Source: Candidatus Thiopontia autotrophica
GTDB taxonomy: Bacteria; Pseudomonadota; Gammaproteobacteria; GCF-002020875
NCBI GenBank assembly: GCA_014384675.1
Contig: JACNFK010000038.1
Span: 1 to 47,804, forward strand
Length of the DNA: 47,804 bases
Reading direction: 5' to 3'
This document shows, one piece after another, positions 7,836 to 45,218 of the stretch. A model generated the notes under the pieces. The model was given only the letters and a program-made list of their open reading frames with translations, was not told the origin of the DNA and searched no databases. The stretch's first letter is position 1. The number at the start of each line of letters is the position of its first letter. Made by a program: the position numbers and the translations under genes.

Positions 7836-9137
7836 TTATTTTTCTCCTCGCCCCACCCCATAGTATTTAATACCGGCAGATCTCATCTTCTCTGGCGAGT
7901 AGAGATTTCTACCATCAAAAACCACCGGGGTTTTCATCTTCTCAATCAATAAGTTAAAGTCTGGTGACCAGAAACTCTTCCACTCCGTCACAATCATCAG
8001 GCCATCAGCACCATCAAGAACTGAATCTCGCCCCTCCCCATAACTGATCGCACTCTGTTCTCCAAAATATCGCTTTGCGCTCTCCATCGCCTCGGGGTCG
8101 TAAATTTGTACCGATGCCCCCTGCCCCACTAGCGTCTCCACCAACTCGACTCCAGGAGCATTCCTGATATCACAGCTGCCCGGTTTGTAGGAGATCCCCC
8201 AGAGCGCAAACCGCTTTCCTCTCAGATCCATCTCGAAGTGACTCCACGCCTTGCGGAACAGCACCTCCTTCTGCTGTTCATTTATCTCCAATACCGCATC
8301 CAGCAGCTGTCCGGCAGACCCTGCCTCTCGAATTGTGTTGGCGAGAGTGGCGACATCCTTGGCAAAGTTGGGGCCACCGAAACCGGTACCTGGATATAGA
8401 TAGTCATAACCGATACGCTGATCAGACCCCATCCCCTGACGCACCTCCTCAATATCCGCCCCCACATCTTCCGCCACATCCGCCATCTCGTTCATAAAGC
8501 TGATACGGGTCGCCAGCATTGCATTGGAGGCAAACTTGGTAAGCTCTGCAGAGCGTGGGGACATCGTCATCACCACATCACGATTCCGGTTATAGGGAGC
8601 ATAGAGGTCACGCATAATCTCTACCCCCTCAACGGAGTCACTCCCCAACAGAATCCGATCTGGACGACGGAAATTCTGGATCATCCGCCCCTCAGTCATA
8701 AAATCTGGCTCCACAATCAGATGACAATGGCTCGGCGCCCCGCGCTGATTCAACTCATCCTGGACGATCTCATAAAGCCTGTCCGAGGTGCCAATCGGGA
8801 AGGTGGTACGGTTCACCAGAAGAGTGTCGCTCTCTATCACCATACCGATACGTCCCGCAATGGTCTCAGCCAGCTCCAGCTGCTCCGGATCTAGCAACAA
8901 AAAGTGCAGGCCACCATACTCAGCACCCTCATTCAGTGACTGGGAGAGACGCAGGCGACCACTATCCAACTGCTGGCCAAGCAGCTTCTTCAGCCCCGGC
9001 TCACTGATTGAGCTCTCTTCTATCTTCTCTGCAAATGGAAAAGTCGATGAGACCAGCAACACCTCATTACCGATATCCGCCAGACAGGCAGCTGTCACCA
9101 GAGCAGATGGATTATTGCCGTATACTGTTATTTTCAT
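7836..9137 (-). CDS. UDP-glucose/GDP-mannose dehydrogenase homologue lacking the catalytic cysteine
   Basis: A 433-residue protein with the full three-domain layout and length of nucleotide-sugar 6-dehydrogenases, which oxidise UDP-glucose to UDP-glucuronate. The family lysine/asparagine segment ELTKFASNAMLATRISF (residues 198-214) is kept, as are YPGTGFGG and the C-terminal ALWGISYKPGSCDIRNAP. However, the active-site motif GGSCFPKD reads GGPNFAKD, so the nucleophilic Cys is Asn257. The N-terminal Rossmann motif is also degenerate: YGNNPSALVTAA instead of the usual GTGYVG pattern. The frame is intact, so it is either a pseudoenzyme or has altered chemistry. It follows galU and pgi on the same strand, consistent with sugar-nucleotide metabolism, separated from pgi by 75 bases. 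Confidence 0.85.
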   Translation of the reverse strand: MKITVYGNNPSALVTAACLADIGNEVLLVSSTFPFAEKIEESSISEPGLKKLLGQQLDSGRLRLSQSLNEGAEYGGLHFLLLDPEQLELAETIAGRIGMVIESDTLLVNRTTFPIGTSDRLYEIVQDELNQRGAPSHCHLIVEPDFMTEGRMIQNFRRPDRILLGSDSVEGVEIMRDLYAPYNRNRDVVMTMSPRSAELTKFASNAMLATRISFMNEMADVAEDVGADIEEVRQGMGSDQRIGYDYLYPGTGFGGPNFAKDVATLANTIREAGSAGQLLDAVLEINEQQKEVLFRKAWSHFEMDLRGKRFALWGISYKPGSCDIRNAPGVELVETLVGQGASVQIYDPEAMESAKRYFGEQSAISYGEGRDSVLDGADGLMIVTEWKSFWSPDFNLLIEKMKTPVVFDGRNLYSPEKMRSAGIKYYGVGRGEK

Positions 9138-14829: not shown

Positions 14830-15438
14830 ATGAGTTCCACAGATAACAGCCTGAAGAGGCTGCATAAGTTGTTGCAGAGTAGTGGTATGACATCCGATAA
14901 GCCGGGGCGTTCGCTGCGTCCCAGAAAGGAGTTGCCGGATGATTTTGTCGAGGCGAGTCTGCCGCCACTGAAAAACCGCAAGCCTTGGGGAAAACAACCA
15001 ACATTCTTTCTCTCCAGGGGTGAGGTCTCCAGCCATCTGCTAAAAAAGGCATACTATATTAACCAGTTAAACAGAAAGGTGATCCCCAGGCTGGGGCTTC
15101 CATACTCATCCCATCTGCGGCTGAGCTCAATAAATGCCGAGGGGGTTGCCATTGTCCATGCAGACTCCCCTGCCTGGGCACAACGAGGACGCTTTCTGCA
15201 GCAGAATATTCTTGATCTGCTGCATCAGGAGGGGGTGCGCCAGGTTAAGCGGGTGAGGTTGAAAGTCCGCTTCTCCAGCGAGCCACCACCACCCGAGATA
15301 ATCACTGCAAAACAGGCCTCTACCAAGGTGGCGGAACAGCTCTCTCGCCAGGCACGCTCTATCAAGGGGGAGCTGGGGCAGTCGATGCAGCGCCTATCCA
15401 ACACGCTACTTCGCAATCGACAGCGGGGAGGCAAATAG
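14830..15438 (+). CDS. DUF721 (DciA-like) protein
   Basis: The 202-residue product has the DUF721 core at about residues 90-145 (LRLSSINAEGVAIVHADSPAWAQ, then RFLQQNILDLL and VKRVRLKVRF). DUF721 proteins of the DciA group help load the replicative helicase DnaB in bacteria that lack DnaC. The N-terminal 60 residues are basic and proline-rich and the C-terminus is again basic, consistent with DNA or protein contacts. No clear ribosome site precedes the ATG; an in-frame ATG about 20 codons later is an alternative start. Function in helicase loading is inferred from family membership. Confidence 0.75.
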   Translation: MSSTDNSLKRLHKLLQSSGMTSDKPGRSLRPRKELPDDFVEASLPPLKNRKPWGKQPTFFLSRGEVSSHLLKKAYYINQLNRKVIPRLGLPYSSHLRLSSINAEGVAIVHADSPAWAQRGRFLQQNILDLLHQEGVRQVKRVRLKVRFSSEPPPPEIITAKQASTKVAEQLSRQARSIKGELGQSMQRLSNTLLRNRQRGGK

Positions 15439-17606: not shown

Positions 17607-17635
17607 TTTTACTATCCAAGGATTTTCTTTATAAT
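17607..17635 (+). promoter_or_regulatory. Promoter of the first sulfur-globule-like gene
   Basis: A perfect -10 TATAAT at 17630-17635 is preceded by TTTACT with 16-base spacing. It leaves a leader of about 75 bases, AT-rich, containing a small GTTG/CAAC hairpin before the AAAGGAAAA ribosome site of the gene at 17715. Assignment is by eye. Confidence 0.6.
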
Positions 17636-17714
17636 GGGCGCAAATGTTGAGGAGATACAACTCCGATTCAAAATTTTTAACCATTTTTTAATTTTAAGTT
17701 TAAAGGAAAATATC

Positions 17715-18032
17715 ATGAAAAAAATTATTGCTACTATCGCTCTTGTTGCTGTTGCTTCTAGCGCTTCTGCTTTCTTCGGTGGATCTGACGACAACCAGTC
17801 TGGTTACGGAACTGGTTCTGCTGACGGTGCTTTCGACGGAAAGGGTCGTGGTGCTGGTAAGGGAAATGCTGACGCAGAGGGTAACTTCAGCATGACTATC
17901 AACGCTTCTGGTAAGGGTTCTTCTAACATGGAAGCTGACATGGACGCTGCTGAGAATGCACGCATGAACGGTACTACTGACGTTCGCACTGAGAACACTC
18001 CTGCTTACTACGGAGCTCCTGTAGCTAAGTAA
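17715..18032 (+). CDS. Sulfur-globule-like exported Gly-rich protein, copy 1
   Basis: A 105-residue exported protein. Residues 1-19 form a signal peptide ending SSASA; the mature part is FFGGSDDNQSGYG, GSADGAFDGKGRGAGKG, then FSMTINASGKG, and ends YYGAPVAK. The DGxFDxxxRGxGxG and FSMxxxxSGxG patterns resemble sulfur-globule family proteins of purple sulfur and symbiotic sulfur bacteria, which coat periplasmic sulfur. Codons are strongly biased to GCT, GGT, GAC, ATC and CGT, unlike most neighbours, indicating very high expression. No cysteine is present. A strong terminator follows. The next gene is a near-identical paralogue. Family assignment rests on motif resemblance. Confidence 0.7.
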   Translation: MKKIIATIALVAVASSASAFFGGSDDNQSGYGTGSADGAFDGKGRGAGKGNADAEGNFSMTINASGKGSSNMEADMDAAENARMNGTTDVRTENTPAYYGAPVAK

Positions 18033-18322: not shown

Positions 18323-18646
18323 ATGAAAAAGATTATTGCTACTATCGCTCTTGTTGCTGTTGCTTCTAGCGCTTCTGCTTTCTTCGGTGGATCTGACGAC
18401 AACCAGTCTGGTTACGGAACTGGTTCTGCTGACGGTGCTTTCGACGGAAAGGGTCGTGGTGCTGGTAAGGGAAATGCTGACGCAGAGGGTAACTTCAGCA
18501 TGACTATCAACGCTTCTGGTAAGGGTTCTTCTAACATGGAAGCTGACATGGACGCTGCTGAGAATGCACGTTTCAAGGGTGACTCTGATGTTCGCACAGA
18601 GAGCCGTCCTTACTACTACGCTCCTGTAGCTCCTGCTGCACAGTAA
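18323..18646 (+). CDS. Sulfur-globule-like exported Gly-rich protein, copy 2
   Basis: A 107-residue paralogue of the preceding gene. From the ribosome site through residue 83 the DNA is identical except for one base (AAA/AAG in codon 3), then both DNA and protein diverge: RFKGDSDVRTESRPYYYAPVAPAAQ replaces RMNGTTDVRTENTPAYYGAPVAK. The same signal peptide, Gly/Asp repeats and highly biased codons are present. Its own leader and terminator mean it can be controlled separately. The pair fits sulfur-globule envelope genes, which often occur as paralogue sets, beside the dsr and nar functions in this window. Confidence 0.7.
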   Translation: MKKIIATIALVAVASSASAFFGGSDDNQSGYGTGSADGAFDGKGRGAGKGNADAEGNFSMTINASGKGSSNMEADMDAAENARFKGDSDVRTESRPYYYAPVAPAAQ

Positions 18647-19229: not shown

Positions 19230-19607
19230 CTAGTGCTCACCTTTGGTTTTACGTATCCCGGCAATTCGATTCCCCTGCTTTTGGGGGCCACCCATGGGAA
19301 AAAGGTCATGAAGATAACGATTATTTCCATGCTCCTTGCCCCACACCTTGGCAAAGTGCTTAATCATTTTTCTCACCTCAATCTGCACCCCATGCTCGTC
19401 ATAGTGGTCTCGAATCAAGTTAATAACATCCCAGTGCTCATCGGTTAACGCCTCAATCCCCTCCTTCTTCGCCTGAGCAGTCGCAAACCCCTCTGACCAC
19501 TGATCAAGATCCTGGATATACCCCTCCTGGTCCGTTGCAATCTCCTTACCATCCACGTTGACATACTCAACCCGAATTGCTGTTGGATTTGTGTTCATTG
19601 CCATCAT
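19230..19607 (-). CDS. DsrC/TusE-family protein lacking both conserved cysteines
   Basis: About 125 residues, aligning along its whole length with DsrC: VNGKEI-type N-terminus (VDGKEIATDQEGYIQDLDQW), LTDEHWDVINLIRDHYDEHG and GNNRYLHDLFP. In DsrC the flexible C-terminal arm carries two Cys (KQACKIGG and PTGC); here the equivalents are KQGNRIAG and TKGEH, so both are replaced, by Asn and Glu. It therefore cannot form the DsrC trisulfide or intramolecular disulfide. Family members without these cysteines have been proposed to be regulatory (RspA type). It lies about 105 bases after narI on the same strand, suggesting a link with nitrate respiration. The ATG at 19607 is chosen for an AGGG upstream; ATGs at 19604 and 19598 are alternatives. 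Confidence 0.85.
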   Translation of the reverse strand: MMAMNTNPTAIRVEYVNVDGKEIATDQEGYIQDLDQWSEGFATAQAKKEGIEALTDEHWDVINLIRDHYDEHGVQIEVRKMIKHFAKVWGKEHGNNRYLHDLFPMGGPQKQGNRIAGIRKTKGEH

Positions 19608-19714
19608 TAATACCCTATTTTTTCTCAAAAAAAAGCTGGGGGTGCAGATTAATCAGCACATCCCCCAGCCCACAGAACTATTACAACACCACCGTATCAA
19701 GATAGATACAGATC

Positions 19715-20407
19715 CTAGTTCATCATCACTTTTTTGGCCCGAACGATCTGGTAAGCACGTCCCAGATAGGTGAGTGGAACACTCCAGACGTGAACCAAAC
19801 GAGTAAATGGGAAGACCAGGAATATTGTCATACCAAAGAACATATGGATCTTGTAGGCACCCGATACACCGGCAATCAGACTAGGATCAACGCTCAATGT
19901 TGCAATGCTCTTCACATAATCCGCAAGAACCAGCATCGTCGTCACATCCCCCTCAGCAGCATGGTGCAGTGAACCAGGAATGGTATTCAACCCCAGCGCA
20001 GCCGTTGCCAACAGCCAGATGATAACGAAGTTATCCCGTTTACGGCTTACTGCCTTCACTCTCGCATTGGTCATACGACGATTAACCAGTATTGCCGCAC
20101 CCACAAGCGCCATTCCACCAAACAGAGCACCCGCATAAATCGCAATGTACTGATGTTGCACATCGGTAGCAACCATCTGCCACCAACTATGGGGTAGCAA
20201 CATACCCGCTGCATGTCCAAAGAAGATCCCCAGGATCCCCACATGAAACAGGTTACTCCCCAACCACATCCCTTTATTGCTCAGTAACTGACTGGAATCC
20301 GCTTTCCAGGTGTACTGCTCACGATCAAAACGTATCCAACTGCCCAGAATAAAGACTGTTCCAGCCAGATAGGGATAAACACCAAAAATAAAATCATGTA
20401 ATGTCAT
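19715..20407 (-). CDS. narI: Respiratory nitrate reductase gamma subunit (cytochrome b)
   Basis: Di-haem b membrane subunit that oxidises quinol on the periplasmic side and passes electrons to NarH. The 230-residue length is standard. Five hydrophobic helices can be traced (first YPYLAGTVFILGSWIRF, last MFFGMTIFLVFPFTRLVHVW), with histidines in the second helix (FHVGILGIFFGHAAG) and last helix (FTRLVHVW) suited to bind the two haems. It starts 12 bases after the narJ stop. Confidence 0.96.
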   Translation of the reverse strand: MTLHDFIFGVYPYLAGTVFILGSWIRFDREQYTWKADSSQLLSNKGMWLGSNLFHVGILGIFFGHAAGMLLPHSWWQMVATDVQHQYIAIYAGALFGGMALVGAAILVNRRMTNARVKAVSRKRDNFVIIWLLATAALGLNTIPGSLHHAAEGDVTTMLVLADYVKSIATLSVDPSLIAGVSGAYKIHMFFGMTIFLVFPFTRLVHVWSVPLTYLGRAYQIVRAKKVMMN

Positions 20408-20418
20408 TTCCTGCTCCT

Positions 20419-20934
20419 TTAAGCGGCTTTAACCAATTGACCACGGTTCTCGACCATACGAACCAACTTTGCATACGGGCTGTCGGCCTTCTCCAGATTA
20501 TCTGCGAGGATCGCAAGGATCTTCCCAACGTCTGCCAGGAAGAAGCGGCACTCATCCTCTCCCAGTGTGGAGACATACTCCAACAACAGAGGCAGATAAT
20601 CAGGAATCTCCCCATCCTTCATCTCAAGACCGTTGGCCTTGAAATGCTCGGTCAGGTCGATCAATGCCGGACCACGATCACGACTGTCACCATGAATATG
20701 GTGGGTCATATGAAGATCATGCTCAGGAACCATATCAAAGGTCTGTACATAGACCTGCTGGATTCCAGTCAAGTCATGAAGCTGTAGCCAGCTGATAAAC
20801 TCACGTAGCGCCTTACCCTCACTTCTGTTGATCTCAGAGTCACTATCGATCACCTCCGTGATCTCCGATAGATGATTCATCAGCTCAGGCGTTGGATAAT
20901 CCAACAAGCGAGCCAGTACTGTATAAAGTTTCAT
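20419..20934 (-). CDS. narJ: Nitrate reductase assembly chaperone
   Basis: Cytoplasmic chaperone of the NarJ/DmsD family needed for molybdenum-cofactor insertion and membrane attachment of NarGH; not part of the final enzyme. At 171 residues it is shorter than E. coli NarJ (about 236) but has the family core: LLDYPTPELMNHL, the QQVYVQTFDMVPEHDLHMTHH segment near residues 58-80 and YLPLLLEYVSTL. Placed between narH and narI as in other narGHJI operons, 15 bases after narH. Confidence 0.94.
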   Translation of the reverse strand: MKLYTVLARLLDYPTPELMNHLSEITEVIDSDSEINRSEGKALREFISWLQLHDLTGIQQVYVQTFDMVPEHDLHMTHHIHGDSRDRGPALIDLTEHFKANGLEMKDGEIPDYLPLLLEYVSTLGEDECRFFLADVGKILAILADNLEKADSPYAKLVRMVENRGQLVKAA

Positions 20935-20949
20935 CTCTAACTCTCCTTA

Positions 20950-22512
20950 TTAAGATTTTCTGCTTTTGGGTGGAGCCACGATAGCCATCGGGGTGACCGT
21001 CTTCTTGCGAGGAACCGGGAACAGAGAGAGTCCTCGTCCAGAATCTTCGCCCTGCCCACTGGTGTTACCACCAGAGAAACCATTCTGCCCCTGGAACCCG
21101 TAAGGGTCATCAAGACGTAGCTCCTCATGAGAGGTCGGAATCACAAAGCGATCTTCATAGTTGGCAATACCAAGATATTGGTACATCTCCTCTGCCTGCT
21201 CAACCGTGAGACCCGCAGTCTTCAATGCATCCGCCCCTTCACCATCCTCAACCGCCTTCATACGCTGATGGCTACGCATCGCCAATAGACGACGGATCGC
21301 ATCGGTAACCGGCTTCTCATCCCCTGCCGTCAACAGATTGGCAAGGAACTTGGTTGGGAATCGCAGTGCATCCACCGTTGGAATCACACCATCGGCCTCA
21401 GTTGGCAGGTTACCCTGGTCAATCTGTCCCTGTACTGGCGACATTGGGGGCACATACCACATGCTAGGCAGGGTGCGATACTCTGGATGGAGCGGGAAGG
21501 CGATCTTCCAATCCACCGCCATCTTGTAGACAGGTGAGTTTTGCGCCGCATCAATCCAGGATTGAGGTATACCATCTGCCAATGCCTGCTTAATCACCTC
21601 TGGATCGTTTGGATCCATAAAGGTGTTCAGGTGATCCTGATAAAGATCGGTCTCTACTGGGGTACCGGCTGCATCACTAATGCGATCTGCATCATAGAGC
21701 ATCACACCCATATAACGGATACGACCTACACAAGACTCCGCACAGGCCGTCGGCATGCCAGACTCAATGCGAGGATAACAGAGGATACACTTCTCTGATT
21801 TACCCGACTCCCAGTTGTAGTAGATCTTCTTGTAGGGGCATGCACTCACGCACATGCGCCAGCCACGACAACGATCCTGATCCACCAGAACCACCCCATC
21901 CTCATCACGCTTATAGAGCGCGCCGGATGGGCAGCTGGCCACACAGGCCGGGTTCAGACAGTGGTTACAGAGGCGAGGCAGATACATGTGGAATGTATTC
22001 TCAAACTCTGAATACATCTGCTTCTGAATCCCCTCGAAGTTCTTATCCTGTGAACGCTTCTCGAACTCACCCGCCAGATCATCCTCCCAGTTCGGTCCCC
22101 AAGTAATCTTGTCCATGGTCTCACCGGTAATCTGGGAGAGTGGACGCGCTGTAGGCGCCGCCTCAGAGAGAGGTTTGTTCTGCAGTTTGGGGTAGTCATA
22201 GTCGAATGGCTCGTAGTAGTCATCCACCTCTGGCATGTCCGGGTTGGCAAAGATGTTCAGCAGTTTGCTGGCACGACCACCGGCCTTCAGCTCCAGCTTG
22301 CCATTCTTGTTGACCCAACCACCTCGCCATCTCTCCTGGTCTTCCCACATCTTGGGGTAACCAATACCGGGTTTAGACTCGACGTTATTGAACCAGGCGT
22401 ACTCAACCCCTTTACGGTTCGTCCAGATGTTCTTACAAGTTACTGAACAGGTATGACAACCAATACACTTGTCGAGGTTCAGTACCATTGCAATTTGTGC
22501 ACGTATTTTCAT
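20950..22512 (-). CDS. narH: Respiratory nitrate reductase beta subunit
   Basis: Iron-sulfur subunit carrying electrons from NarI to NarG at the cytoplasmic face. Four cysteine clusters are visible in 520 residues: CIGCHTCSVTC at residues 16-26, CNHCLNPACVASCPSG, CRGWRMCVSACPYKK and CILCYPRIESGMPTACAESC. The Trp in CRGWRMC replaces a Cys, as required for the 3Fe-4S centre of NarH. The order, spacing and N-terminal MKIRAQIAMVLNLDKC match the family. AGGAGAATAAA precedes the ATG. Confidence 0.98.
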   Translation of the reverse strand: MKIRAQIAMVLNLDKCIGCHTCSVTCKNIWTNRKGVEYAWFNNVESKPGIGYPKMWEDQERWRGGWVNKNGKLELKAGGRASKLLNIFANPDMPEVDDYYEPFDYDYPKLQNKPLSEAAPTARPLSQITGETMDKITWGPNWEDDLAGEFEKRSQDKNFEGIQKQMYSEFENTFHMYLPRLCNHCLNPACVASCPSGALYKRDEDGVVLVDQDRCRGWRMCVSACPYKKIYYNWESGKSEKCILCYPRIESGMPTACAESCVGRIRYMGVMLYDADRISDAAGTPVETDLYQDHLNTFMDPNDPEVIKQALADGIPQSWIDAAQNSPVYKMAVDWKIAFPLHPEYRTLPSMWYVPPMSPVQGQIDQGNLPTEADGVIPTVDALRFPTKFLANLLTAGDEKPVTDAIRRLLAMRSHQRMKAVEDGEGADALKTAGLTVEQAEEMYQYLGIANYEDRFVIPTSHEELRLDDPYGFQGQNGFSGGNTSGQGEDSGRGLSLFPVPRKKTVTPMAIVAPPKSRKS

Positions 22513-22549: not shown

Positions 22550-25500
22550 TTAGTTATTGATGCCTGGAGGGTTTTTCTTCGCCTCCCGCTCTGGCGTCAA
22601 CGGACGCTCTAACCAATCCACATCCTGATCCTCGATCTTATGGACAATGACATGTTCATCACGATTCGAACCCACCGTACCGTAGTAGTTGAATGCATAA
22701 GATAGCTGTGCATAACCACCAATCATATGGGTGGGTTTGGGTACCGTACGGGTCACACTATTGAGAATTCCGCCACGTTTTCCTGTGGTATTGGAACCAG
22801 GAACGTTAACGTTCTTCTCCTGAGCGTGATACATGATGGCCATTCCATTAGGAACACGTTGTGAGACCACAACACGAGCAACGGTTGCACCGTTGTCATT
22901 CACCGCCTCAACCCAATCGTTATCCTTGAGCCCAATCGACCGTGCATCCTCCTCAGAGACCCAGAAGTAAGGGCCGCCGCGGAACAGGGTCAACATTCTC
23001 AGGTTATCCTGATAGGTGGAGTGAATGCCCCACTTGGAGTGTGGCGTAATCCAGTTCAGCACCAGATGAGGTTTACCCTTGACCGCTTCAGGCACATTCT
23101 TGTGCGCCTGCAGATCCACTGCCGGTTTGAAGGCACAGAACCCCTCACCAAAGTCGAGCATCCACTCATGATCCTGATAGAACTGGGCACGCCCAGTCAG
23201 CGTACGTAGAGGGATATGCTCATGCAGGTTGGTGTAACAGGCATTGTAGCTGACCTCTTCCGACTCAATACCAGACCAGGTGGGCGCGGTAATAATCTTG
23301 CGTGGCTGAGCCACAATGTCATGATAGGTGATCTTCTCATCCTGACGCCCTCTGTAGAGATGGCTATGGTCCACACCGGTCTTCTTAGACTGGGCACTCC
23401 ACGATTTATGCGCCACCTCACCATTGGTCTCTGGTGCCATCCGCATCACTGCATCACAGACATGAACATCCTCGGAGAGTGAAGGCATCCCCTTACTGAT
23501 CCCCTCCTCTTTGATTACACCATTGAGAGAGGCGAGCTCTTCCAGCTCCTTATCGGTATTCCAGTCTATCCCCTTGATGGTATTACCCAACTTGTTCATC
23601 AGGGGTCCAAGCGCAATGTACTTGGCATAGGTGTTGGGATAGTCACGCTCCACCACCTTGAAGATCGGTGCGGTCTTGCCCGGAATCAGATCACAATCAC
23701 CCTTCTTCCAGTCCTTGACCTCACCAAACGGTTGCGCCAGGGCCATTGGGGTATCGTGTTGCATTGGCAGTGCGACCACATCCTTCTGGGTACCGAGATG
23801 GGTCTCCGCCAGTTCAGAGAACTTCTTGGCAATGGTTTTAAAGATCTGCCAGTCTGATTTAGACTCCCATGCAGGATCCACCGCCTTACCCAGTGGGTGG
23901 ATGAAGGGGTGCATATCTGTGGTGTTCAGATCCGCCTTCTCATACCAGGTCGCTGTTGGCAGAACCATGTCGGAGTAGGCACCAGTAGAGTTGAGGCGGA
24001 AGTTGATATCCACCATCAGATCCAGTTTTCCGGTTGGAGACTTCTCTCTCCACTTGATCTCCTGACAGGCAGCACCCTCAGTACCCTCACTCATGACACC
24101 ATTCTGTGCGCCGAGCAGGTGCTTGAGGAAGTACTCATGCCCCTTGGAGGAGCAACCAATCAGGTTGGAACGCCATACAAACAGGTTACGTGGATGATTC
24201 TCTTCCGCATCGATATCCTCGTAGGCGAAGTTGATCTCACCCGCCTTCAGCTTCTCAGCCAGATAGCTGGATACACCCGCCTCATCGGTTGCGCCGGCTG
24301 CCTCTGCCTCCTTGACGATCTCAATCGGATTCTTGTCAAAGTGCGGCATGGATGGGGTCCATCCAAGACGCTGTGCGACCACATTGTAGTCACCCAGCTG
24401 GTAACCCTTATAACGACCCTTTGCGGTAGAAGCTAACAATCCATCGGCCTCAACCCGCTCATAACGCCATTGATCGGTATGGAAATACCAGTAGGTGGTC
24501 GAGGCGGTATGGCGCGGTGGGCGGTGCCAATCCAGACCAAAGGCAATCGGTGCCCAACCCGCCTGTGGACGGAGTTTCTCCTGACCCACATAGTGTGCCC
24601 AACCACCACCAGACTGACCCACGCAACCACAGATGTGGAGCAGGTTCATGATCCCGCGATAGTTCATATCGTTGTGGTACCAGTGGTTGATTGCTGCACC
24701 CAGAATCACCATCGATTTACCACGGGTCTTCGAGGCGTTGTCGGCAAACTCACGACCGGTACGCTCCAGATCCGCAGCAGGCACGCCAGTTACCTTGGCC
24801 GCCCATGCAGGAGTATAAGGTACAGACTCATCAGAGTAATCTTTTGCCAGGTTATCACCCAGACCACGATCAATACCGTACTGAGCAACCTGCAGATCAA
24901 ACACGGAGGTGACATAGACCTCTTCACCCGAGGCCAATTTCAGCTTGCGTGCCGGGATATTGCGAACCAGGCTGTCGCCATCTTCCGGAGTAAAGTGTGG
25001 GAAGGTAACCTCAACCACATCATCCTTGCTATCGATACAGCTCAACTCAGCCTCGGTCTCTCTGCCGTGGGCCTGTTCAAGAATGTTCCACTTACCCTCT
25101 TCACCCCAACGGAATCCTACAGAACCGTTCGGCGCAACAAAGGCGTTGCTCTTCTTGTCAAAAACAATGGTCTTCCACTCCGGGTTGTTGGACTCGCCCA
25201 TGTTGTTGTCAAAGTCAGAGGCGCGTAGGAAACGTCCGGTAACCAGCCTGTCGCCCTGCTTCTCCAGAATGACCTGCATCGGGAAGTCGGTAAAGCTACG
25301 TGCATACTCTGTAAAGTATGGATCCTGCTGATTGATATGGAACTCTTTCAGTGCCACATGGCCCATCGCCAGGAATGCAGCAGAGTCTGTACCCTGCTTG
25401 ACCGGCATCCAGAGGTCGGCAAACTTCACATACTCTGCATAGTCCGGCGCCATCGACACAATCTTGGTACCGTTGTAACGGGACTCCACCGCAAAGTGGG

Positions 25501-26293
25501 CATCCGGGGTACGGGTCATCGGCAGGTTGGCACCACAGACAATAATGTATTTTGAGTTATACCAGTCTGCGGACTCCGGTACATCGGTCTGTTCACCCCA
25601 GACCTGCGGTGAGGCAGGGGGCAGATCACAGTACCAGTCATAAAAAGAGCCAACTCCAGCACCTATTAGGGAGAGGTACCTGGAGCCAGCCGCATAAGAG
25701 ATCATCGACATCGCCGGGATTGGGGAGAATCCGTAGATCCGGTCCGGTCCCCACTTCTTGATGGTGTGGATATTGGCCGCTGCTATCATCTCAACCATCT
25801 CATCCCACTCTGCGCGAACAAATCCGCCCAGTCCACGAACGCCGACATAGCTTTCACGCTTTGCAGGGTCATTCTGAATCGCTGCCCATGAGTCCACAGG
25901 ATCCTTACCGCTTGCACGCTCTCTGCGGTAGAGGTCGACCAGTCGTCCTCTCACCAATGGATACTTGATCCGATGCGGGCTATAGAGATACCAGGAGAAC
26001 GAGGCGCCACGCTGACACCCTCTGGGCTCATGGTTGGGCAGATCATCACGGGTACGGGGATAGTTGGTCTGCTGCATCTCATAAGCAACCAGACCATTCT
26101 TGACAAAAATCTGCCAGGAACAACCACCGGTACAGTTCACACCATGGGTAGATCGAACCACCTTGTCATGACGCCAGCGATTACGATAGGTATCCTCCCA
26201 CTGACGATCATCCGTTGTGGTAATGCCGTGCCCTTTTGAGAAGGTATCCTTGACTTTGCCAAAATATCTCAGACGATCAAGAAAATGACTCAT
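22550..26293 (-). CDS. narG: Respiratory nitrate reductase alpha subunit (molybdenum catalytic)
   Basis: Reduces nitrate to nitrite at a Mo-bis-MGD centre, cytoplasmic side, using quinol electrons via NarHI. The 1247-residue size is standard. The FS0 4Fe-4S ligands are His50, Cys54, Cys58 (HGVNCTGGC) and Cys93 (GCQRG). The molybdenum-coordinating Asp lies in YDWYCDLPPASPQVWGEQTD, and YIIVCGANLPMTRTPDAHF is the cofactor-binding region. As in cytoplasmic NarG there is no Tat signal. The upstream gap to narK2 (about 125 bases) holds a TTGAT half-site but no full Fnr palindrome. The gene is transcribed with narHJI. Confidence 0.99.
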   Translation of the reverse strand: MSHFLDRLRYFGKVKDTFSKGHGITTTDDRQWEDTYRNRWRHDKVVRSTHGVNCTGGCSWQIFVKNGLVAYEMQQTNYPRTRDDLPNHEPRGCQRGASFSWYLYSPHRIKYPLVRGRLVDLYRRERASGKDPVDSWAAIQNDPAKRESYVGVRGLGGFVRAEWDEMVEMIAAANIHTIKKWGPDRIYGFSPIPAMSMISYAAGSRYLSLIGAGVGSFYDWYCDLPPASPQVWGEQTDVPESADWYNSKYIIVCGANLPMTRTPDAHFAVESRYNGTKIVSMAPDYAEYVKFADLWMPVKQGTDSAAFLAMGHVALKEFHINQQDPYFTEYARSFTDFPMQVILEKQGDRLVTGRFLRASDFDNNMGESNNPEWKTIVFDKKSNAFVAPNGSVGFRWGEEGKWNILEQAHGRETEAELSCIDSKDDVVEVTFPHFTPEDGDSLVRNIPARKLKLASGEEVYVTSVFDLQVAQYGIDRGLGDNLAKDYSDESVPYTPAWAAKVTGVPAADLERTGREFADNASKTRGKSMVILGAAINHWYHNDMNYRGIMNLLHICGCVGQSGGGWAHYVGQEKLRPQAGWAPIAFGLDWHRPPRHTASTTYWYFHTDQWRYERVEADGLLASTAKGRYKGYQLGDYNVVAQRLGWTPSMPHFDKNPIEIVKEAEAAGATDEAGVSSYLAEKLKAGEINFAYEDIDAEENHPRNLFVWRSNLIGCSSKGHEYFLKHLLGAQNGVMSEGTEGAACQEIKWREKSPTGKLDLMVDINFRLNSTGAYSDMVLPTATWYEKADLNTTDMHPFIHPLGKAVDPAWESKSDWQIFKTIAKKFSELAETHLGTQKDVVALPMQHDTPMALAQPFGEVKDWKKGDCDLIPGKTAPIFKVVERDYPNTYAKYIALGPLMNKLGNTIKGIDWNTDKELEELASLNGVIKEEGISKGMPSLSEDVHVCDAVMRMAPETNGEVAHKSWSAQSKKTGVDHSHLYRGRQDEKITYHDIVAQPRKIITAPTWSGIESEEVSYNACYTNLHEHIPLRTLTGRAQFYQDHEWMLDFGEGFCAFKPAVDLQAHKNVPEAVKGKPHLVLNWITPHSKWGIHSTYQDNLRMLTLFRGGPYFWVSEEDARSIGLKDNDWVEAVNDNGATVARVVVSQRVPNGMAIMYHAQEKNVNVPGSNTTGKRGGILNSVTRTVPKPTHMIGGYAQLSYAFNYYGTVGSNRDEHVIVHKIEDQDVDWLERPLTPEREAKKNPPGINN

Positions 26294-26420: not shown

Positions 26421-28028
26421 TTACGGGTTATCAAACTCTCTCTTCGGACCGAGGTAGTACCACCAGTTCAATACCAGACAGACCGTATAGAAGATGGCAA
26501 ATCCATAGAGTGCATTCTCAGGTGTCGCTGCCTTGATCTGCTCACCAAACACCTTAGGGATAATGAAGGCGCCATAGGCCGCCACTGCTGAGGTCCACCC
26601 CAGTACAGGGCCTGCCTGCTCTTTATCAAACACCATTGCAATAGTACGGAAGGTAGAACCATTACCAATTCCTGTTGCTGCAAACAGAATCAGGAAGAGG
26701 ATAAAGAATGGGAAGAAGAACTCCTCAGGGGTTGCAGACTGGTAGGCCGCTGCGAGGAAATAGGCAACACCCAATGCACTACCAATCATGGTCAAGGAGA
26801 CATATTGTGTCACCTTGGCTCCACCCATCTTATCTGCCATCCAGCCGCCAATGGGGCGAATCAGCGCGCCAATAAAGGGGCCCATCCAGGCATACATCAG
26901 TGCTGAGGGGCCATTTGGATTGGCCACATCATGCATCATGGCGCCATCGGCACCCATGACATGGGTGAAACCGAAGACCACCTTGATCGCCAAAGCAAAA
27001 CCGGCAGAGTAACCAATAAAGCTTCCGAAAGTCATGGTGTAGATGATGCTCATCACCCATGTGTGCTTGTTCTCGAAAATCTTGAACTGGCGTTTCAGAT
27101 TGGGCTTGATATCCCCCGGGAGCAGTTTCAGAATCTGGACCGTCATAAACAGGATACCTGCAATAACCGGCCATTTCGCCCACCCTGGTGCACCGATTCC
27201 TGTTGGATCAGGAAGAATGACATAGAGTCCAGCCGCTGCTGTCATAAATCCAATGCCCAGCATCATGGTAATCATTGAGAAGGCACCAATCGGAGAGGGC
27301 AGATGCGGGGTGACATGGTCCACCTTGAGGTTATTCATCCCGAACCAGCCGGCAAAGGCCAGTGGAATCAGGAAAACCAGCCAGATAAACCCGGCATTAT
27401 GGATGTAGGTGTCAGAGCCTGCCGGAATCTTGCCAATCAGGGTTCCAGAGGAGGTCACCAACGTCATTGGATCACCACCAAAGATTCCGAAGGTCATCAC
27501 CAGAGGAACCAGAATCTGCATAGTGGTTACCCCTGCATTTCCCAGCCCTGCATTCAGCCCCAGCGCCAACCCCTGCTGCTTCTTGGGAAAGAAGAAGCTG
27601 ATATTTGACATTGAGGAGGCGAAGTTACCCCCACCAAAGCCAGAGAGGAATGCCAGAATCTGGAATACCCAGAGTGGAGTCTCCTTATCCTGCAGCGCAA
27701 GACCTGCACCAATGGCCGGTATCATCAATAGTGCGGTACTAAAGAAGATGGTATTTCGACCACCCGCAATACGTATAAAAAAGCTGCTGGGGATTCGCAG
27801 TGTTGCACCGGTCAGACCGGCAATGGCCATCAGGGTGAAGAGCTCCGGTTTTGCAAAGGGGAACCCCAAGTTGAGCATCTGCACGGTGATGATGCCCCAG
27901 TAGAGCCATACCGCAAAGCCATTTAACAGACTGGGGATCGAGATCCAGAGATTTCTGTTTGCGATCCTTTTTCCCTCCGACTCCCAGAACTGTTCGTTTT
28001 CCGGGTCCCACTTGGTGATATCCGACAT
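26421..28028 (-). CDS. narK2: Nitrate/nitrite antiporter (NarK2-type)
   Basis: Twelve-helix major-facilitator transporter of the nitrate/nitrite family, 535 residues, expected to exchange cytoplasmic nitrite for nitrate. The N-terminal WDPENEQFWESEGKRIANRNLW is characteristic of the NarK2/E. coli NarK branch, and the nitrate signatures appear as GFGGGNFASSMSNISFFFP near residues 135-155 and AATGIGNGSTFRTIAMVF near 450. An arginine in each signature half can bind the anion. It lies between narK1 and narG in one orientation. NarK2 naming follows the pairing, not proof of transport direction. Confidence 0.93.
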   Translation of the reverse strand: MSDITKWDPENEQFWESEGKRIANRNLWISIPSLLNGFAVWLYWGIITVQMLNLGFPFAKPELFTLMAIAGLTGATLRIPSSFFIRIAGGRNTIFFSTALLMIPAIGAGLALQDKETPLWVFQILAFLSGFGGGNFASSMSNISFFFPKKQQGLALGLNAGLGNAGVTTMQILVPLVMTFGIFGGDPMTLVTSSGTLIGKIPAGSDTYIHNAGFIWLVFLIPLAFAGWFGMNNLKVDHVTPHLPSPIGAFSMITMMLGIGFMTAAAGLYVILPDPTGIGAPGWAKWPVIAGILFMTVQILKLLPGDIKPNLKRQFKIFENKHTWVMSIIYTMTFGSFIGYSAGFALAIKVVFGFTHVMGADGAMMHDVANPNGPSALMYAWMGPFIGALIRPIGGWMADKMGGAKVTQYVSLTMIGSALGVAYFLAAAYQSATPEEFFFPFFILFLILFAATGIGNGSTFRTIAMVFDKEQAGPVLGWTSAVAAYGAFIIPKVFGEQIKAATPENALYGFAIFYTVCLVLNWWYYLGPKREFDNP

Positions 28029-28106: not shown

Positions 28107-29549
28107 CTACTCCAGAGACTCACTCGGAAGTGTCCCCTCCATTCGCTGTCGCTTCAACCGCTCTGCCTCCTGCCTGGCCTTCTCACGCGCAGAGGTATAG
28201 CTGTTATAGAACTGCTCGATAATCTCGGACTGCTCTACTGCTGCCCTGGCAGTGGCATAGGACTCCAGATCCTCATGGGACTGCTCATACTCACGCATCA
28301 CATGATCCCTTGCTAATAAAGCATCCTGTCGCTGCTTATCTTTTGCGAAGGTATAGTGCATCCAGACCAGTGAGACCGAGGTGGCACCATAGAGCAGCAT
28401 AAAGACCACACTGTTGATACCGGTAAAGTCGATCAACGCACCGAACATGATCGGTAGCAGAAAGCCCCCCATGCCCCCCGCCAGTCCAACAATGCCTGAG
28501 GCGACACCGATATTGTCTGGATACTCATCGGAGAGGAACTTGAAGACCGAGGCCTTTCCAAATCCCCAGGCGATACCGACAACAAACAGTAGACTGGTGA
28601 ATACCCAGACATTGAGACCGACACCCACAACCACACTACCGGTAGTGGTCTTGATCACCATCTCTGTCTGTGGATAGGACATCAGGAAGAGGCAGACCCA
28701 GGAGATCCACATTACCCACCAGGTCACCTTGTAGGCACCATATTTATCCGAGAACCAGCCGCCCAGCGCGCGAATAACCCCGGATGGCAACACAAAGACT
28801 GCCGCAAGGAGCGCTGCAGTGGTCAGATCAAAGCCATACTCTGCAATGTAGTACTTGGTCATCCACAGAGAGAGCCCCACAAACCCACCAAACACCAACG
28901 AGTAGTACTGCATGTACTTCCAGATCTTGGGGTCGCCCAACATCTTCAGCTGATCGGCAATCGTGATATGGCTCCCTACCTTATGCTCAGGATCCTCATA
29001 GGTGAACATCCAGTAGAGCACAACAACGACAAACATGGCGACAGCATAGACCTTGGGTACCATCTCCCAGCCATAGGCCACCACCAGTGAGGGGGCAACA
29101 AACTTGGTCAGTGCAGCACCTGCGTTACCGGCACCAAAGATACCCATGGCAAAGCCCTGCTTCTCCTTGGTAAACCAGCGTGCGGTGTAGGCGATACCCA
29201 CCGAGAACGAGGCGCCTGCGATACCCACAAACAGCCCCAATACAATAAACTGCCAGTATTCGGTCGCCTCACTGATAAACCAGAGTGGCAAAATCGTAGC
29301 CAGCATCAACAGAAAGTAGACAATCCGTCCACCAAATTTGTCTGTCAACATGCCCACCGGCAGTCGGGTGATCGATCCAGTCAGGATCGGGGTTGCGATC
29401 AGGATTCCAAACTGGGTCTCACTGAGCGTCAACAGCTCCTTGATCGGAATTCCGATGATGGAGAACATCACCCATACCGCAAAACACGCGGTAAAGGCAA
29501 AGGTGTTCATGGTGAGTACTGAAAGCTGCTGGGCTCTAAAACTTGGCAT
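28107..29549 (-). CDS. narK1: Nitrate transporter (NarK1-type)
   Basis: A second major-facilitator nitrate transporter, 480 residues, of the shorter NarK1 branch usually regarded as a proton-coupled nitrate importer. Helices are traceable from LTMNTFAFTACFAVWVMFSI on; the nitrate signatures are GIAGASFSVGIAYTARWF near residues 108-125 and ASGIVGLAGGMGGFLLP near 345. The C-terminal about 75 residues are hydrophilic, charged and coiled-coil-like (YTSAREKARQEAERLKRQRM), an unusual cytoplasmic tail. First gene of the narK1-narK2-narGHJI run and divergent from narX. Confidence 0.92.
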   Translation of the reverse strand: MPSFRAQQLSVLTMNTFAFTACFAVWVMFSIIGIPIKELLTLSETQFGILIATPILTGSITRLPVGMLTDKFGGRIVYFLLMLATILPLWFISEATEYWQFIVLGLFVGIAGASFSVGIAYTARWFTKEKQGFAMGIFGAGNAGAALTKFVAPSLVVAYGWEMVPKVYAVAMFVVVVLYWMFTYEDPEHKVGSHITIADQLKMLGDPKIWKYMQYYSLVFGGFVGLSLWMTKYYIAEYGFDLTTAALLAAVFVLPSGVIRALGGWFSDKYGAYKVTWWVMWISWVCLFLMSYPQTEMVIKTTTGSVVVGVGLNVWVFTSLLFVVGIAWGFGKASVFKFLSDEYPDNIGVASGIVGLAGGMGGFLLPIMFGALIDFTGINSVVFMLLYGATSVSLVWMHYTFAKDKQRQDALLARDHVMREYEQSHEDLESYATARAAVEQSEIIEQFYNSYTSAREKARQEAERLKRQRMEGTLPSESLE

Positions 29550-29840: not shown

Positions 29841-31778
29841 ATGTCAACTCAACCAAAAGAGCAGTCCCTTATTCTTCGTTTTGGTCTTGCGCTAGGGGGA
29901 ATCGTACTGCTGACATTCATCAGCATGCTCAGCTCAATTTTTATCTCTGAATCAATCACCGGAATGGCGAGTGCAATCAACCAGGCGGGCTCTCTTCGGA
30001 TGAAATCATTCCAGATTGCAACTGACCTGGTCTACAAGAATGCCGGCACCACCACCGAACCGAGCCCATCCGCTCCCGGGGACCTCTTCTCCAGCCATGT
30101 CCACAACTTTGATTCACGGCTTCACCATCCCAGTATCCGGTCATCCGTCCCAAAGGATCCGAACAGCCAAATCAACCAGACCTACCAGGAGGTTGTTCGG
30201 GTATGGCAGTATCAGATCAAACCCATACTGTTTGTTTATGAAAAAATGGAGGACCCCTCCTACTTTCCGGGAAGAGAGGGTGACGCCCAGTGGGATGCAT
30301 TGACAAAGACCTCACGAAACCTGATCCGGCAGCGCTATATGGGTCTTGTCAGCTATTTTGTCCGTAAGATTGACAGCATGGTAAAAGAGCTGGAGCTGGA
30401 GATGGAGGAGAAGATCAAGACGCTTCACCTCATCGAGTCGAGCAGCCTGTTTATTGCCATTGCCATTGTTCTGATGATCATGATTTTTCTCTACTCCAGG
30501 ATTCTCACCCCTCTGCAAACTCTGATGACGGCAACACAAAAGATCCGAGAGGGTGATTTCAGCTACCAGGCATCGGTGAGTGGAAACAATGAACTCACTC
30601 GACTGGTAAACACCTTCAATGCGATGTCTACCGAGCTCTCTAAAACCTACATTGATCAAGAGAGGGAGATCCATGAGAAGACGGAGGATCTGAAACAGAA
30701 AAAGAACACCATGGAGCTGCTCTACAACACCTCCAGCATTCTTGCCCAGAACCCCACAAGCTCCAGAAGCTACGAGAGAATTCTTGAGAAAATAGACCAA
30801 CTTCTCAACATCAAGTCCGGGCTGATCTGCCTCTCCGATGCCAGCGCCATGAGGGGGCATGTCCTCGCCTCCAATCTGCGGGATCACCACTGTAGTGCAG
30901 GTTGCAAAGGGTGCTTCTCATCAACCGAAAACAGTGGCAGTGAATTTGTGACCCCCATCAAAGACCGTAACCGCTCTCGTTCTTACGGCCTGTTGATGCT
31001 GAAACCCGATGGAAAGCAGCTGGATGAGTGGCAAACCTCCACCATCCAGATGATCTCAGAGCAGATTGGGGCCGCAATCACCATTGCTCGTGGCACCATC
31101 AAAGAGAAGGAGAACATTCTTAACCATGAACGGAGCAGTATTGCCCGTGAGTTACATGACTCCTTAGCACAATCACTCTCCTACCTGAAAATTGAGGTTA
31201 GTCGCATCCAAAAACACCTCTCGGAGATCGAGAACAGTGAAGTGGCCCAGACCATTGCGACAGATATTCGTACCGAACTTAATAATGCCTACCGTCAACT
31301 CCGTGAACTGCTCACCACCTTCAGACTCTCCATCGGGACCGATGAACTGGGCAATACCATCAAACAGTCAATTGAGGATTTCAGGCAACGGGAAGACGTG
31401 AAGATCATGCTGGATATCCGTCTGGGTGATTGCAGGGTCAACCCCCATGAGGCCATCCATCTGGTCTATATCCTTCGTGAGGCCCTGAATAATGTACACA
31501 AGCATGCAGAGGCCTCCAATGTCTGGGTCGAACTGCGCTGCACACCCACCAAGGCGATCACTCTAACCATTCAGGATGATGGCATTGGTGTGGACGAAAA
31601 TCTGATCCGCCAAGGGCACTTTGGCCTCTCCATCATGCAAGAGCGTACAACCGCATTGAATGGGGTCTATAAGATCAGCAGACGCAATGGGAGTGGCACC
31701 ACTGTTGAGATCAATTTTACCCCCGTAGAACACCATGAACCAACTGGAGACATCACCGCGTGGATCAACCAAACCTAA
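29841..31778 (+). CDS. narX: Nitrate/nitrite sensor histidine kinase (NarX-like)
   Basis: Inner-membrane sensor of 645 residues. A transmembrane helix at about 13-34 leads into the periplasmic domain with the ligand P-box NQAGSLRMKSFQIA near residues 46-60; a second helix is near 203-223, followed by HAMP and a coiled segment. The central GAF-like module carries a Cys cluster (Cys351, Cys355, Cys358; CSAGCKGC). The HisKA_3 phospho-acceptor is His439 in SIARELHDSLAQSL, and the HATPase has NNVHKHAEA, DDGIGV and GHFGLSIM. No strong ribosome site precedes the ATG. It overlaps narL by 19 bases. Specificity for nitrate follows from the P-box and the nar neighbourhood. Confidence 0.93.
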   Translation: MSTQPKEQSLILRFGLALGGIVLLTFISMLSSIFISESITGMASAINQAGSLRMKSFQIATDLVYKNAGTTTEPSPSAPGDLFSSHVHNFDSRLHHPSIRSSVPKDPNSQINQTYQEVVRVWQYQIKPILFVYEKMEDPSYFPGREGDAQWDALTKTSRNLIRQRYMGLVSYFVRKIDSMVKELELEMEEKIKTLHLIESSSLFIAIAIVLMIMIFLYSRILTPLQTLMTATQKIREGDFSYQASVSGNNELTRLVNTFNAMSTELSKTYIDQEREIHEKTEDLKQKKNTMELLYNTSSILAQNPTSSRSYERILEKIDQLLNIKSGLICLSDASAMRGHVLASNLRDHHCSAGCKGCFSSTENSGSEFVTPIKDRNRSRSYGLLMLKPDGKQLDEWQTSTIQMISEQIGAAITIARGTIKEKENILNHERSSIARELHDSLAQSLSYLKIEVSRIQKHLSEIENSEVAQTIATDIRTELNNAYRQLRELLTTFRLSIGTDELGNTIKQSIEDFRQREDVKIMLDIRLGDCRVNPHEAIHLVYILREALNNVHKHAEASNVWVELRCTPTKAITLTIQDDGIGVDENLIRQGHFGLSIMQERTTALNGVYKISRRNGSGTTVEINFTPVEHHEPTGDITAWINQT

Positions 31779-32416
31779 TCACCCTCATCATTATTGATGA
31801 CCACCCCCTGTTTCGCAAAGGGGTCAGGAATCTGCTCTCCATGAACCCCCGATTCTCCGTGGTTGGGGAGGCTGCAAATGGAAATGAAGGTATCCGGCTT
31901 GCCGCTGAGACAAAACCCGATCTGATCCTACTTGATATCGACATGAAAGGGATGAACGGAATTGAGACATTGAAACTTCTCAAGCAGGATAACCTCCCCT
32001 CAAAAGTCATCATGCTGACAGTCTCAAACCATGAGTCCAACGTCCTTGATGCGTTACGCAGTGGTGCGGATGGTTACCTGCTGAAAGATATGGAGCCGGA
32101 AGATATCCTGGAAAAAATTGAGCAGGCTGCTGACGGGCAGACCGTCATTAGTGAACAGTTGACCACACTATTGGCAAAGTCAATTCGTGATGATCATCTA
32201 TCGCCCCACTCCTCTGCAGAGGCAAACCTGACCAACCGTGAAGCTGAGATTCTACGGCTGGTTATGGATGGCATGAGCAACAAGGTTGTTGCGCGTCAAT
32301 TAGATATCTCTGACGGTACCGTCAAGGTCCACATGAAACATATCCTGAGAAAGTTACAGCTAAAAACCCGTGTTGAAGCCGCTATATGGGCAATTAAAAA
32401 TCTGGATGATGAGTAG
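31760..32416 (+). CDS. narL: Response regulator (NarL family)
   Basis: Transcription factor of 218 residues, partner of the NarX kinase. The receiver domain has the acidic pocket IIIDDHPLF, the phospho-acceptor in LILLDIDMKGMNG (about residue 57), and the Thr/Lys switch residues (MLTVSN, LLKDMEPED). The C-terminal LuxR-type helix-turn-helix is LTNREAEILRLVMDGMSNKV then GTVKVHMKHILRKL. The GTG start has GGAG ten bases upstream and lies within narX, indicating translational coupling. Its 3' end overlaps the convergent HPP gene by 23 bases. Confidence 0.95.
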   Translation: MDQPNLITLIIIDDHPLFRKGVRNLLSMNPRFSVVGEAANGNEGIRLAAETKPDLILLDIDMKGMNGIETLKLLKQDNLPSKVIMLTVSNHESNVLDALRSGADGYLLKDMEPEDILEKIEQAADGQTVISEQLTTLLAKSIRDDHLSPHSSAEANLTNREAEILRLVMDGMSNKVVARQLDISDGTVKVHMKHILRKLQLKTRVEAAIWAIKNLDDE

Positions 32417-32906
32417 TATCTTGATAGAAGGGATTCTTCTCACGTAACACCCCAACAGCCATCGCAATAGAGAGCAGAATGATCGCATTCAAAAAGACTG
32501 GAACCACCATAAAGGCATAACCCAGATTCTCAATCTGTTGGCTCCCGATCGCGGCAGTCACTGCTGTGGCCCCACCGGGCGGGTGCATACACCGCAGGAC
32601 GTGCATCAACACCATCGCTACAGCAATGGCGACAGATGAAGCGAGCAGGGGGCTATCAATCAGAAGCAGACAGCTGATCCCGACAAATGCAGAGGTGATG
32701 TGTCCTCCAACCAGATTCCATGGCTGTGAAACCGGGCTGTGGGGCAGGGCAAAGATCAGCATTGCGGAGGCCCCGGTAGAGGCGAGAATCATTGGCACAT
32801 GGTCCTCCTCCAGAATGGTGTAACTCATAAAAGAGGCCAACAGGGTCGCAATAAAGGCGCCAATCACCGAGAAGGTTGCCTCCCTATTGTTCATTCCACA
32901 CATCAT
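32394..32906 (-). CDS. HPP-family membrane protein
   Basis: Integral membrane protein of 170 residues with about five hydrophobic helices and the defining motif MHPPGGATA near residues 106-114. HPP-family proteins are little studied; a plastid member has been linked to nitrite import, and in bacteria they often sit beside nitrate or nitrite genes. Position next to narXL supports a nitrite-related role, which remains an inference. It is the last gene of a three-gene minus-strand set and ends inside the narL 3' end. Confidence 0.85.
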   Translation of the reverse strand: MMCGMNNREATFSVIGAFIATLLASFMSYTILEEDHVPMILASTGASAMLIFALPHSPVSQPWNLVGGHITSAFVGISCLLLIDSPLLASSVAIAVAMVLMHVLRCMHPPGGATAVTAAIGSQQIENLGYAFMVVPVFLNAIILLSIAMAVGVLREKNPFYQDTTHHPDF

Positions 32907-34306: not shown

Positions 34307-34433
34307 AGTCCATTGCTGAGGATTCCAGGAGCCTGCCCAGGTGCCCACCACATGGTGACCAATTTTACGGAACCATTGACCACTTTTATGTTCTAATATC
34401 TCAATATTGACTACTTAAAATTTGAGGAAAATC

Positions 34434-44885: not shown

Positions 44886-45218
44886 TTAGATACAGCCTGT
44901 TGGCTTGGGTAACCCACCAATCTTACAAGCCTGCTTTGCAGGGCCGAATGGGAACAACTCATACAGATACTTGCTGTTACCCTTCTCCTTACCAAGCTTT
45001 TTACCAAGAGCCTTGGTCAATACACGTACTGCAGGGGCAATCTGATACTCGTCGTAATACTCACGCAGGAAGTCAATTACCTCCCAATGTGCATCAGTCA
45101 ACTCAACATCCTCATCAGCAGCCAATACTGCAGCCACATCTCTTGTCCAATCATTAATATCGGAGAGGTAACCCTCTTCATCAACTTCTACAGCCTGACC
45201 GTTTACATCAATACTCAT
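44886..45218 (-). CDS. dsrC: DsrC, sulfur-carrier substrate of DsrAB
   Basis: Small cytoplasmic protein of 110 residues that carries persulfide sulfur and, as a trisulfide, is the physiological partner of DsrAB and DsrMKJOP. The typical fold runs VNGQAVEVDEEGYLSDINDW to LTDAHWEVIDFLREYYDEY. Both redox cysteines are in the C-terminal arm, KQACKIGGLPKPTGCI: the penultimate Cys (CysA) and the one ten residues earlier (CysB). Preceded by AGGAGAAATGTT; followed by a palindromic spacer and a terminator-like hairpin. Compare the cysteine-less paralogue at 19230. Confidence 0.98.
   Translation of the reverse strand: MSIDVNGQAVEVDEEGYLSDINDWTRDVAAVLAADEDVELTDAHWEVIDFLREYYDEYQIAPAVRVLTKALGKKLGKEKGNSKYLYELFPFGPAKQACKIGGLPKPTGCI

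Follow-up and report, generated by a model that had tools for sequence, protein, structure and literature searches.

A clade of cysteine-free DsrC paralogues associated with nitrate-reduction and dsr genes

Results

A cysteine-free DsrC paralogue downstream of narI

The final gene of the narK-narK-narGHJI series in the window, the 47,804-nt stretch of DNA from a marine sulfur-oxidising bacterium analysed here, encodes a DsrC-family protein that lacks cysteine and belongs to a clade of its own, designated class N. The occurrence of class N genes with nitrate-reduction clusters in many sulfur oxidisers points to a link between nitrate use and sulfur oxidation. The relevant features of the window are as follows.

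19230..19607, minus strand: class N gene, cysteine-free DsrC paralogue of 125 aa, Asn113 at CysB and Glu124 at CysA
19627..19670, minus strand: terminator-like hairpin GCTGGGG...CCCCAGC followed by T8, about -21 kcal/mol
19715..20407, minus strand: narI, profile match
20419..20934, minus strand: narJ, profile match
20950..22512, minus strand: narH, profile match
22550..26293, minus strand: narG, profile match
26421..28028, minus strand: narK-type nitrate/nitrite transporter, profile match
28107..29549, minus strand: second narK-type transporter, profile match
29841..31778, plus strand: NarX/NarQ-like sensor kinase, oriented divergently to the nar operon, profile match
31760..32416, plus strand: NarL-type response regulator, above the NCBIfam cut-off
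32394..32906, minus strand: HPP-family membrane protein; HPP genes adjoin class N in other genomes too
44886..45218, minus strand: canonical dsrC with both cysteines, gene order dsrB-E-F-H-C-M-K-L-J-O-P-N

In profile searches, the ORF at 19607-19230 scored 115.9 bits against PF04358 (cut-off 24.9) and 101.6 bits against TIGR03342 (cut-off 53.5), and the protein therefore falls in the DsrC/TusE/DsvC superfamily. Its product contains the DsrC domain at full length and no Cys residue. The C-terminal end, GGPQKQGNRIAGIRKTKGEH, matches the arm of the true DsrC of the window, GPAKQACKIGGLPKPTGCI, residue by residue except for one extra Gly, located before the arm in the class N protein; P-A-K-Q-A-C-K-I-G-G-L-P-K-P-T-G-C-I of DsrC is aligned to P-Q-K-Q-G-N-R-I-A-G-I-R-K-T-K-G-E-H of class N. 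This alignment bears out the first-pass annotation, which had described collinearity with DsrC to the end, Asn in place of CysB and Glu in place of CysA. The two-cysteine dsrC that it had placed in the same window was found at 44886-45218, and the gene indeed follows narI (end at 19715) on the same strand.

The class N protein is not DsrC sensu stricto, as CysA and CysB are replaced by Glu124 and Asn113 and the locus lies outside the dsr operon, after narI. The penultimate Cys of TusE is likewise represented by Glu124. Neither redox Cys is present, as in RspA. The distance from the class N gene to the canonical dsrC and the dsr operon is ~25 kb. A third DsrC-family gene of the genome (G000, contig C13) also lacks the tail cysteines. 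Elsewhere in the window, yccA is found at 34422-35102, and the plus strand carries tandem duplicate genes (17634-18032 and 18323-18646) for small, probably exported proteins that are 92% identical, have a Tyr/Pro/Ala-rich C-terminal tail and match no NCBIfam model; they are reminiscent of sulfur globule proteins.

Conservation and predicted structure of class N

Class N loci were taken from a scan of the GTDB genome collection and from 369 genomes of the same taxonomic class, and were reduced to 96 distinct sequences. In the 369-genome scan, class N members scored at least 156 bits, as compared with 128 bits or less for others. The group was monophyletic, with SH-aLRT support of 99 in the first tree and support of 100/99 in the careful tree, and forms a clade of its own that is sister to clade D (100/94) and stands apart from E. 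coli TusE. Phylogeny with genomic neighbourhood, the check proposed in the first-pass annotation, thus returned a separate clade with nar, nas and dsr placements.

The class N tail, GGPQKQGNRxAGxxRTKGEH, is almost invariant. Its mean majority frequency is 0.924, which is close to that of DsrC's own tail (0.923), as compared with 0.70 for the class N body. A 61-row alignment of relatives shows no variation in the N113 and E124 columns, and the Asn and Glu replacements are therefore not due to chance; no close homologue with Cys at the CysA or CysB position was found among the clade sequences or in this alignment. For the gene, dN/dS is below about 0.05; compared with two genus relatives, its tail shows no amino-acid replacement despite saturation at synonymous sites. 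As judged by these values, class N is under strong purifying selection, the cysteine-free arm included.

A non-functional dsrC copy, decaying or hitch-hiking, might be suspected from the loss of both catalytic cysteines and from the terminator-like hairpin that precedes the gene in the window. However, the replacement residues are invariant, dN/dS is low, the gene is kept clade-wide and its placement in nitrate clusters recurs, and on sequence grounds this very improbable reading is refuted by the conservation data. Sulfur transfer via another cysteine, which the automatic annotation by TIGR03342 as a sulfur relay protein would imply, has a probability close to nil: the window protein is Cys-free, as are most class N members, and those with one Cys carry none in the conserved tail. 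For the window protein, its composition refutes this possibility.

The AlphaFold2 monomer model of the class N protein (pLDDT 91.9) had Allochromatium vinosum DsrC (1YX3) as its best match, with Z of 15.4, and superimposed on DsrAB-bound DsrC from crystals 2V4J and 3OR1 with an rmsd of 1.7 A over 103-104 residues, the final one included. The full chain is thus predicted to adopt the DsrC fold with its C-terminal arm.

Genomic placement of class N genes

As the seeds of the GTDB scan were mostly nar-linked, the following proportions are biased. Thirty-nine of the 96 class N genes lie in nar operons, all 39 on the same strand, with 32 after narI and seven between narK and narG (Thiothrix). Those after narI belong to Sedimenticola, Thiodiazotropha, Marithrix, Thiohalomonas, a Lamellibrachia symbiont, Sulfuritalea and the genus of the window. 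Adjoining narGHJI on the same strand, as kept in relatives, was thus found at 39 distinct loci; absence of a nar link in relatives, named in the first-pass annotation as evidence against its proposal, was not observed, since the link occurs in many genera. In a Thiothrix MAG (L112), the nar operon is flanked by two class N genes (7950-8363 and 15038-15352), one of them ahead of narG and the other past narI.

A further 21 of the 96 are in assimilatory nitrate/nitrite (nas/nirBD) clusters, where the neighbours are nirB, nirD or genes for a NasA-type molybdoenzyme, a Ser/Thr kinase-phosphatase or a fused Fe-S/DmsC-type subunit. Fourteen lie between dsrN and dsrR in betaproteobacteria, the only class N relatives with a dsr-operon placement. 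Three are located beside dsrAB or class D and six by an HPP-family gene, and for 13 the neighbours were uninformative or the contig end was reached.

Clusters of nirBD-NasA type with a fused Fe-S/DmsC-type subunit are present at L109:487-4881, L138:2926-7518 and, in the genome of the window, L198:2096-9221; their gene content suggests a membrane-bound, quinol-linked assimilatory nitrate reductase. In nas clusters, a conserved protein of ~126 aa without Pfam or NCBIfam matches is encoded between the FeS-DmsC and DsrC-like genes (L138:7597-7977, L150:1973-2326, L109:4925-5260 and L254:1155-1430). The yccA gene adjoins class N in L138, L150, L109, L128, L191 and L195, and adjoins tusE in E. coli (L225).

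The hairpin between narI and the class N gene

In the window, the gap between narI and the class N gene is 107 nt, and the T-run of the hairpin stops 19 nt 5' of the ATG. Given this strong terminator-like hairpin before the start codon, simple co-transcription by read-through from narI appears doubtful in the window genome. The space 3' of the hairpin is too short for a promoter of the gene's own, and transcription must therefore cross the hairpin; judging from this spacing, its source must be either nar or a promoter upstream of the hairpin, which may possibly be an attenuator. Among the 22 gaps of 30-350 nt between narI and class N, 7 contain similar hairpins, as compared with 8 of 440 dinucleotide shuffles. 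They occur in the window's genus and in Sedimenticola, and their T-runs stop 13-22 nt short of the start codon. In most Thiodiazotropha this gap showed no detected hairpin, in Marithrix narI and the class N gene touch or overlap, and in Thiothrix the class N gene sits between narK and narG. The conserved feature across relatives is the common location. A search near the class N gene for FNR-like and NarL-like sites and sigma-70 promoters gave nothing convincing; an FNR-like match at the start codon was dismissed, having two mismatches, as such matches are frequent by chance.

Co-occurrence with dsr and nitrate genes

The 369 genomes were sampled regardless of the gene, and 21 carry class N. 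A dsrA or dsrB gene was present in 20 of these 21, as compared with 98 of the 348 others (Fisher 6e-10), and narH or nirB was present in all 21. The genome of the window (G000) was scored as dsr-positive on the basis of dsrB in the window, as dsrA was not found intact. When only dsr-positive genomes were considered, narH or nirB was found in all 20 carriers and in 64 of the remaining 98 (p = 5e-4). In the 41 further class N carrier genomes, dsrB was present in 37. On the contigs, and by one strict measure, 13 of 21 class N genes were within 15 kb of narH or nirB, as against none of 73 canonical dsrC genes (p = 7e-11). Both the position of the gene and this co-occurrence support the sulfur/nitrate link put forward in the first-pass annotation.

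In the carrier G190, whose genome is 81% complete, no dsrA was found. A genome of the window's genus with dsr genes (G004) lacks class N, narH and nirB altogether. Class N is not required for nitrate-linked sulfur oxidation, since it is missing from 19 of the 29 sampled genomes with dsr and narH. NirB, the siroheme nitrite reductase, was ruled out as an obligate partner, as a true NirB is missing from 4 of the 21 carriers.

Other DsrC-family classes in the same positions

Genes of other DsrC-family classes that retain CysB and lack CysA were found in some genomes with dsr and nar but without class N. Directly after narI, G067 carries a class Q gene with the tail GYGQQACKIAGMRKPLKLMLDV, and G250 and G229 carry a class W gene with the tail GYVKQACKVAGMRRPRAWSTG. 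Fourteen of 74 Q/W genes were within 15 kb of narH or nirB, as compared with 0 of 73 canonical dsrC genes (p = 6e-5), and some adjoin the NasA or FeS-DmsC gene, the same slot as for class N. Classes Q and W thus occupy class N slots where the genome or cluster has no class N gene, and CysA-less members of the family have therefore reached nitrate clusters more than once. This repeated arrival is the strongest reason to consider the nitrate link functional. Genes with the tails ...KPLKLMLDV and ...RPRAWSTG, either immediately following narI or adjoining NasA/FeS-DmsC genes, were recorded at L229:11475-11813, L238:12829-13185 and L240:12534-12866 and in L246, L250, L254 and L263; these classes are separate recruitments to nitrate clusters.

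The use of one slot by class N and two other DsrC-family classes, directly after narI or the FeS-DmsC gene in many genera, would also be expected of an accessory subunit or maturation factor of quinol-linked nitrate reductases (NarGHI, or NasA with its Fe-S/DmsC-type partner). Such a role is nevertheless distinctly unlikely. Nitrate reductases work without class N in most genomes, 52 of the 62 sampled genomes with narH lacking it, and class N follows dsr, which all carriers but one possess, and not nar. Moreover, the 14 copies in dsr operons have no adjoining nar genes.

The sister clade D is also cysteine-free, and its gene shares an operon with those of a NarX/NarQ-like kinase and a NarL-like regulator, next to dsrA. 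The operon (L002:41-3191 and, in the window's own genome, L197:1190-4963 on contig C13) includes genes for an unknown protein, a Cas6-family protein (PF09559, E 1.5e-53), the cysteine-less DsrC paralogue, the kinase and the regulator; in relatives it is divergent and lies a few kb upstream of the dsr genes. This arrangement favours the main rival explanation, that class N is a DNA-binding or other regulator of nar/nas or dsr transcription. Cysteine-less DsrC members were reportedly named RspA in Venceslau 2014 and proposed there as regulators. A role of DsrC in transcription, as proposed in that review, is repeated in PMC7787665. The model also matches the winged helix of LexA weakly (Z about 3), but this match would be expected anyway, as the helix-turn-helix-like part of DsrC's own fold would give the same. 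In addition, class N proteins range from acidic to neutral, with a mean pI of 6.8, conservation peaks in the arm and not in the putative DNA helix, and regulators are rarely the final gene of an operon under their control. A regulator is considered somewhat unlikely, but a serious rival.

Discussion

Class N is best regarded, tentatively and at a little under even probability, as a thiol-free DsrC look-alike that is genomically tied to nitrate reduction and has its partner probably in the Dsr sulfur-oxidation pathway. Because class N tracks dsr closely and adjoins nitrate genes, we infer that it would be called on during nitrate reduction and would act on the Dsr pathway. The protein would be made when nitrate reduction is on, would occupy a docking site of DsrC without carrying sulfur, and would thereby tune or shield the Dsr machinery. 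In the most concrete version, the class N arm would enter the DsrC channel of DsrAB during nitrite production and either limit turnover or keep nitrite off the siroheme. Capping of DsrAB would explain the links to both respiratory and assimilatory nitrate reduction, to HPP-family genes and to the betaproteobacterial dsr operon; the HPP family includes plant nitrite transporters. Against it, many class N genes belong to assimilatory clusters, which produce little nitrite flux. Binding of DsrC to DsrEFH in Allochromatium needs the penultimate Cys, and competition by class N at DsrEFH is therefore unlikely.

A more general proposal is that DsrC paralogues of sulfur oxidisers repeatedly became non-catalytic mimics made with nitrate or nitrite reductases, which would cap or gate DsrAB or another Dsr partner during nitrite formation. 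This is thought unlikely; if true, DsrC mimics would switch cells between sulfur oxidation and nitrate reduction at the protein level. In network data from a Riftia symbiont, narGHI has neighbours in common with assimilatory genes, and assimilatory nitrate genes neighbour the CBB cycle (PMC11636981); these data fit a Dsr/nitrate connection and are no test of it.

Nitrate-coupled sulfur oxidation is central in oxygen-deficient waters, in vent and lucinid symbioses and in sewage filaments. We know of no cytoplasmic protein that is established as linking nitrate reductases to the Dsr pathway. A family found in both types of cluster, always minus the catalytic cysteine, offers a direct genetic handle, as a single gene in culturable Thiothrix or Sedimenticola. 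The automatic annotation as sulfur relay protein is misleading for genes of the class N type and inflates dsrC counts in metagenomes.

Cysteine-less DsrC homologues were already known, multiple dsrC homologues of this kind having been noted in the Solemya velum symbiont (PMC4287430). What appears new is the tie to nitrate clusters: in the open-access literature we found no report of nar operons that contain a DsrC-family gene, or of nitrate slots shared by several CysA-less classes. In Thiodiazotropha, 'DsrC/TusE' genes are highly expressed (PMC13137333); contig numbering precluded placing them in class N by their distance from aprA.

As compared with DsrC (1YX3; 2V4J, 3OR1), class N has the same fold, length and arm at 44-45% identity, but has Asn and Glu for the arm cysteines, an extra Gly before the arm and a location in nar/nas clusters. 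E. coli TusE belongs to the same family (47% identity over 102 residues), and its yccA-tusE neighbourhood resembles the yccA genes beside class N in several genomes; however, the penultimate Cys on which tRNA thiolation depends is present in TusE, whereas class N has Glu there, and class N is a separate clade. The 7-residue stretch before the arm was rejected as a marker of DsrC versus TusE: it is missing in a short CysA-only subfamily, yet E. coli TusE has it, and it is therefore uninformative on DsrAB binding. The DsrC-like auxiliary genes of SUP05 phages (PMC4164917) encode family members with an incomplete cysteine pair, as does class N, but they lack one cysteine and a stretch of 7-8 residues that class N retains. 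Spread of class N by viruses or plasmids was rejected, as none was found in viral contigs and plasmid and phage records gave TusE-type matches only. RspA likewise has no conserved cysteines, and what is added here over RspA is the linkage to nitrate clusters and the division into two clades, of which N is nitrate-linked and D is dsr-linked.
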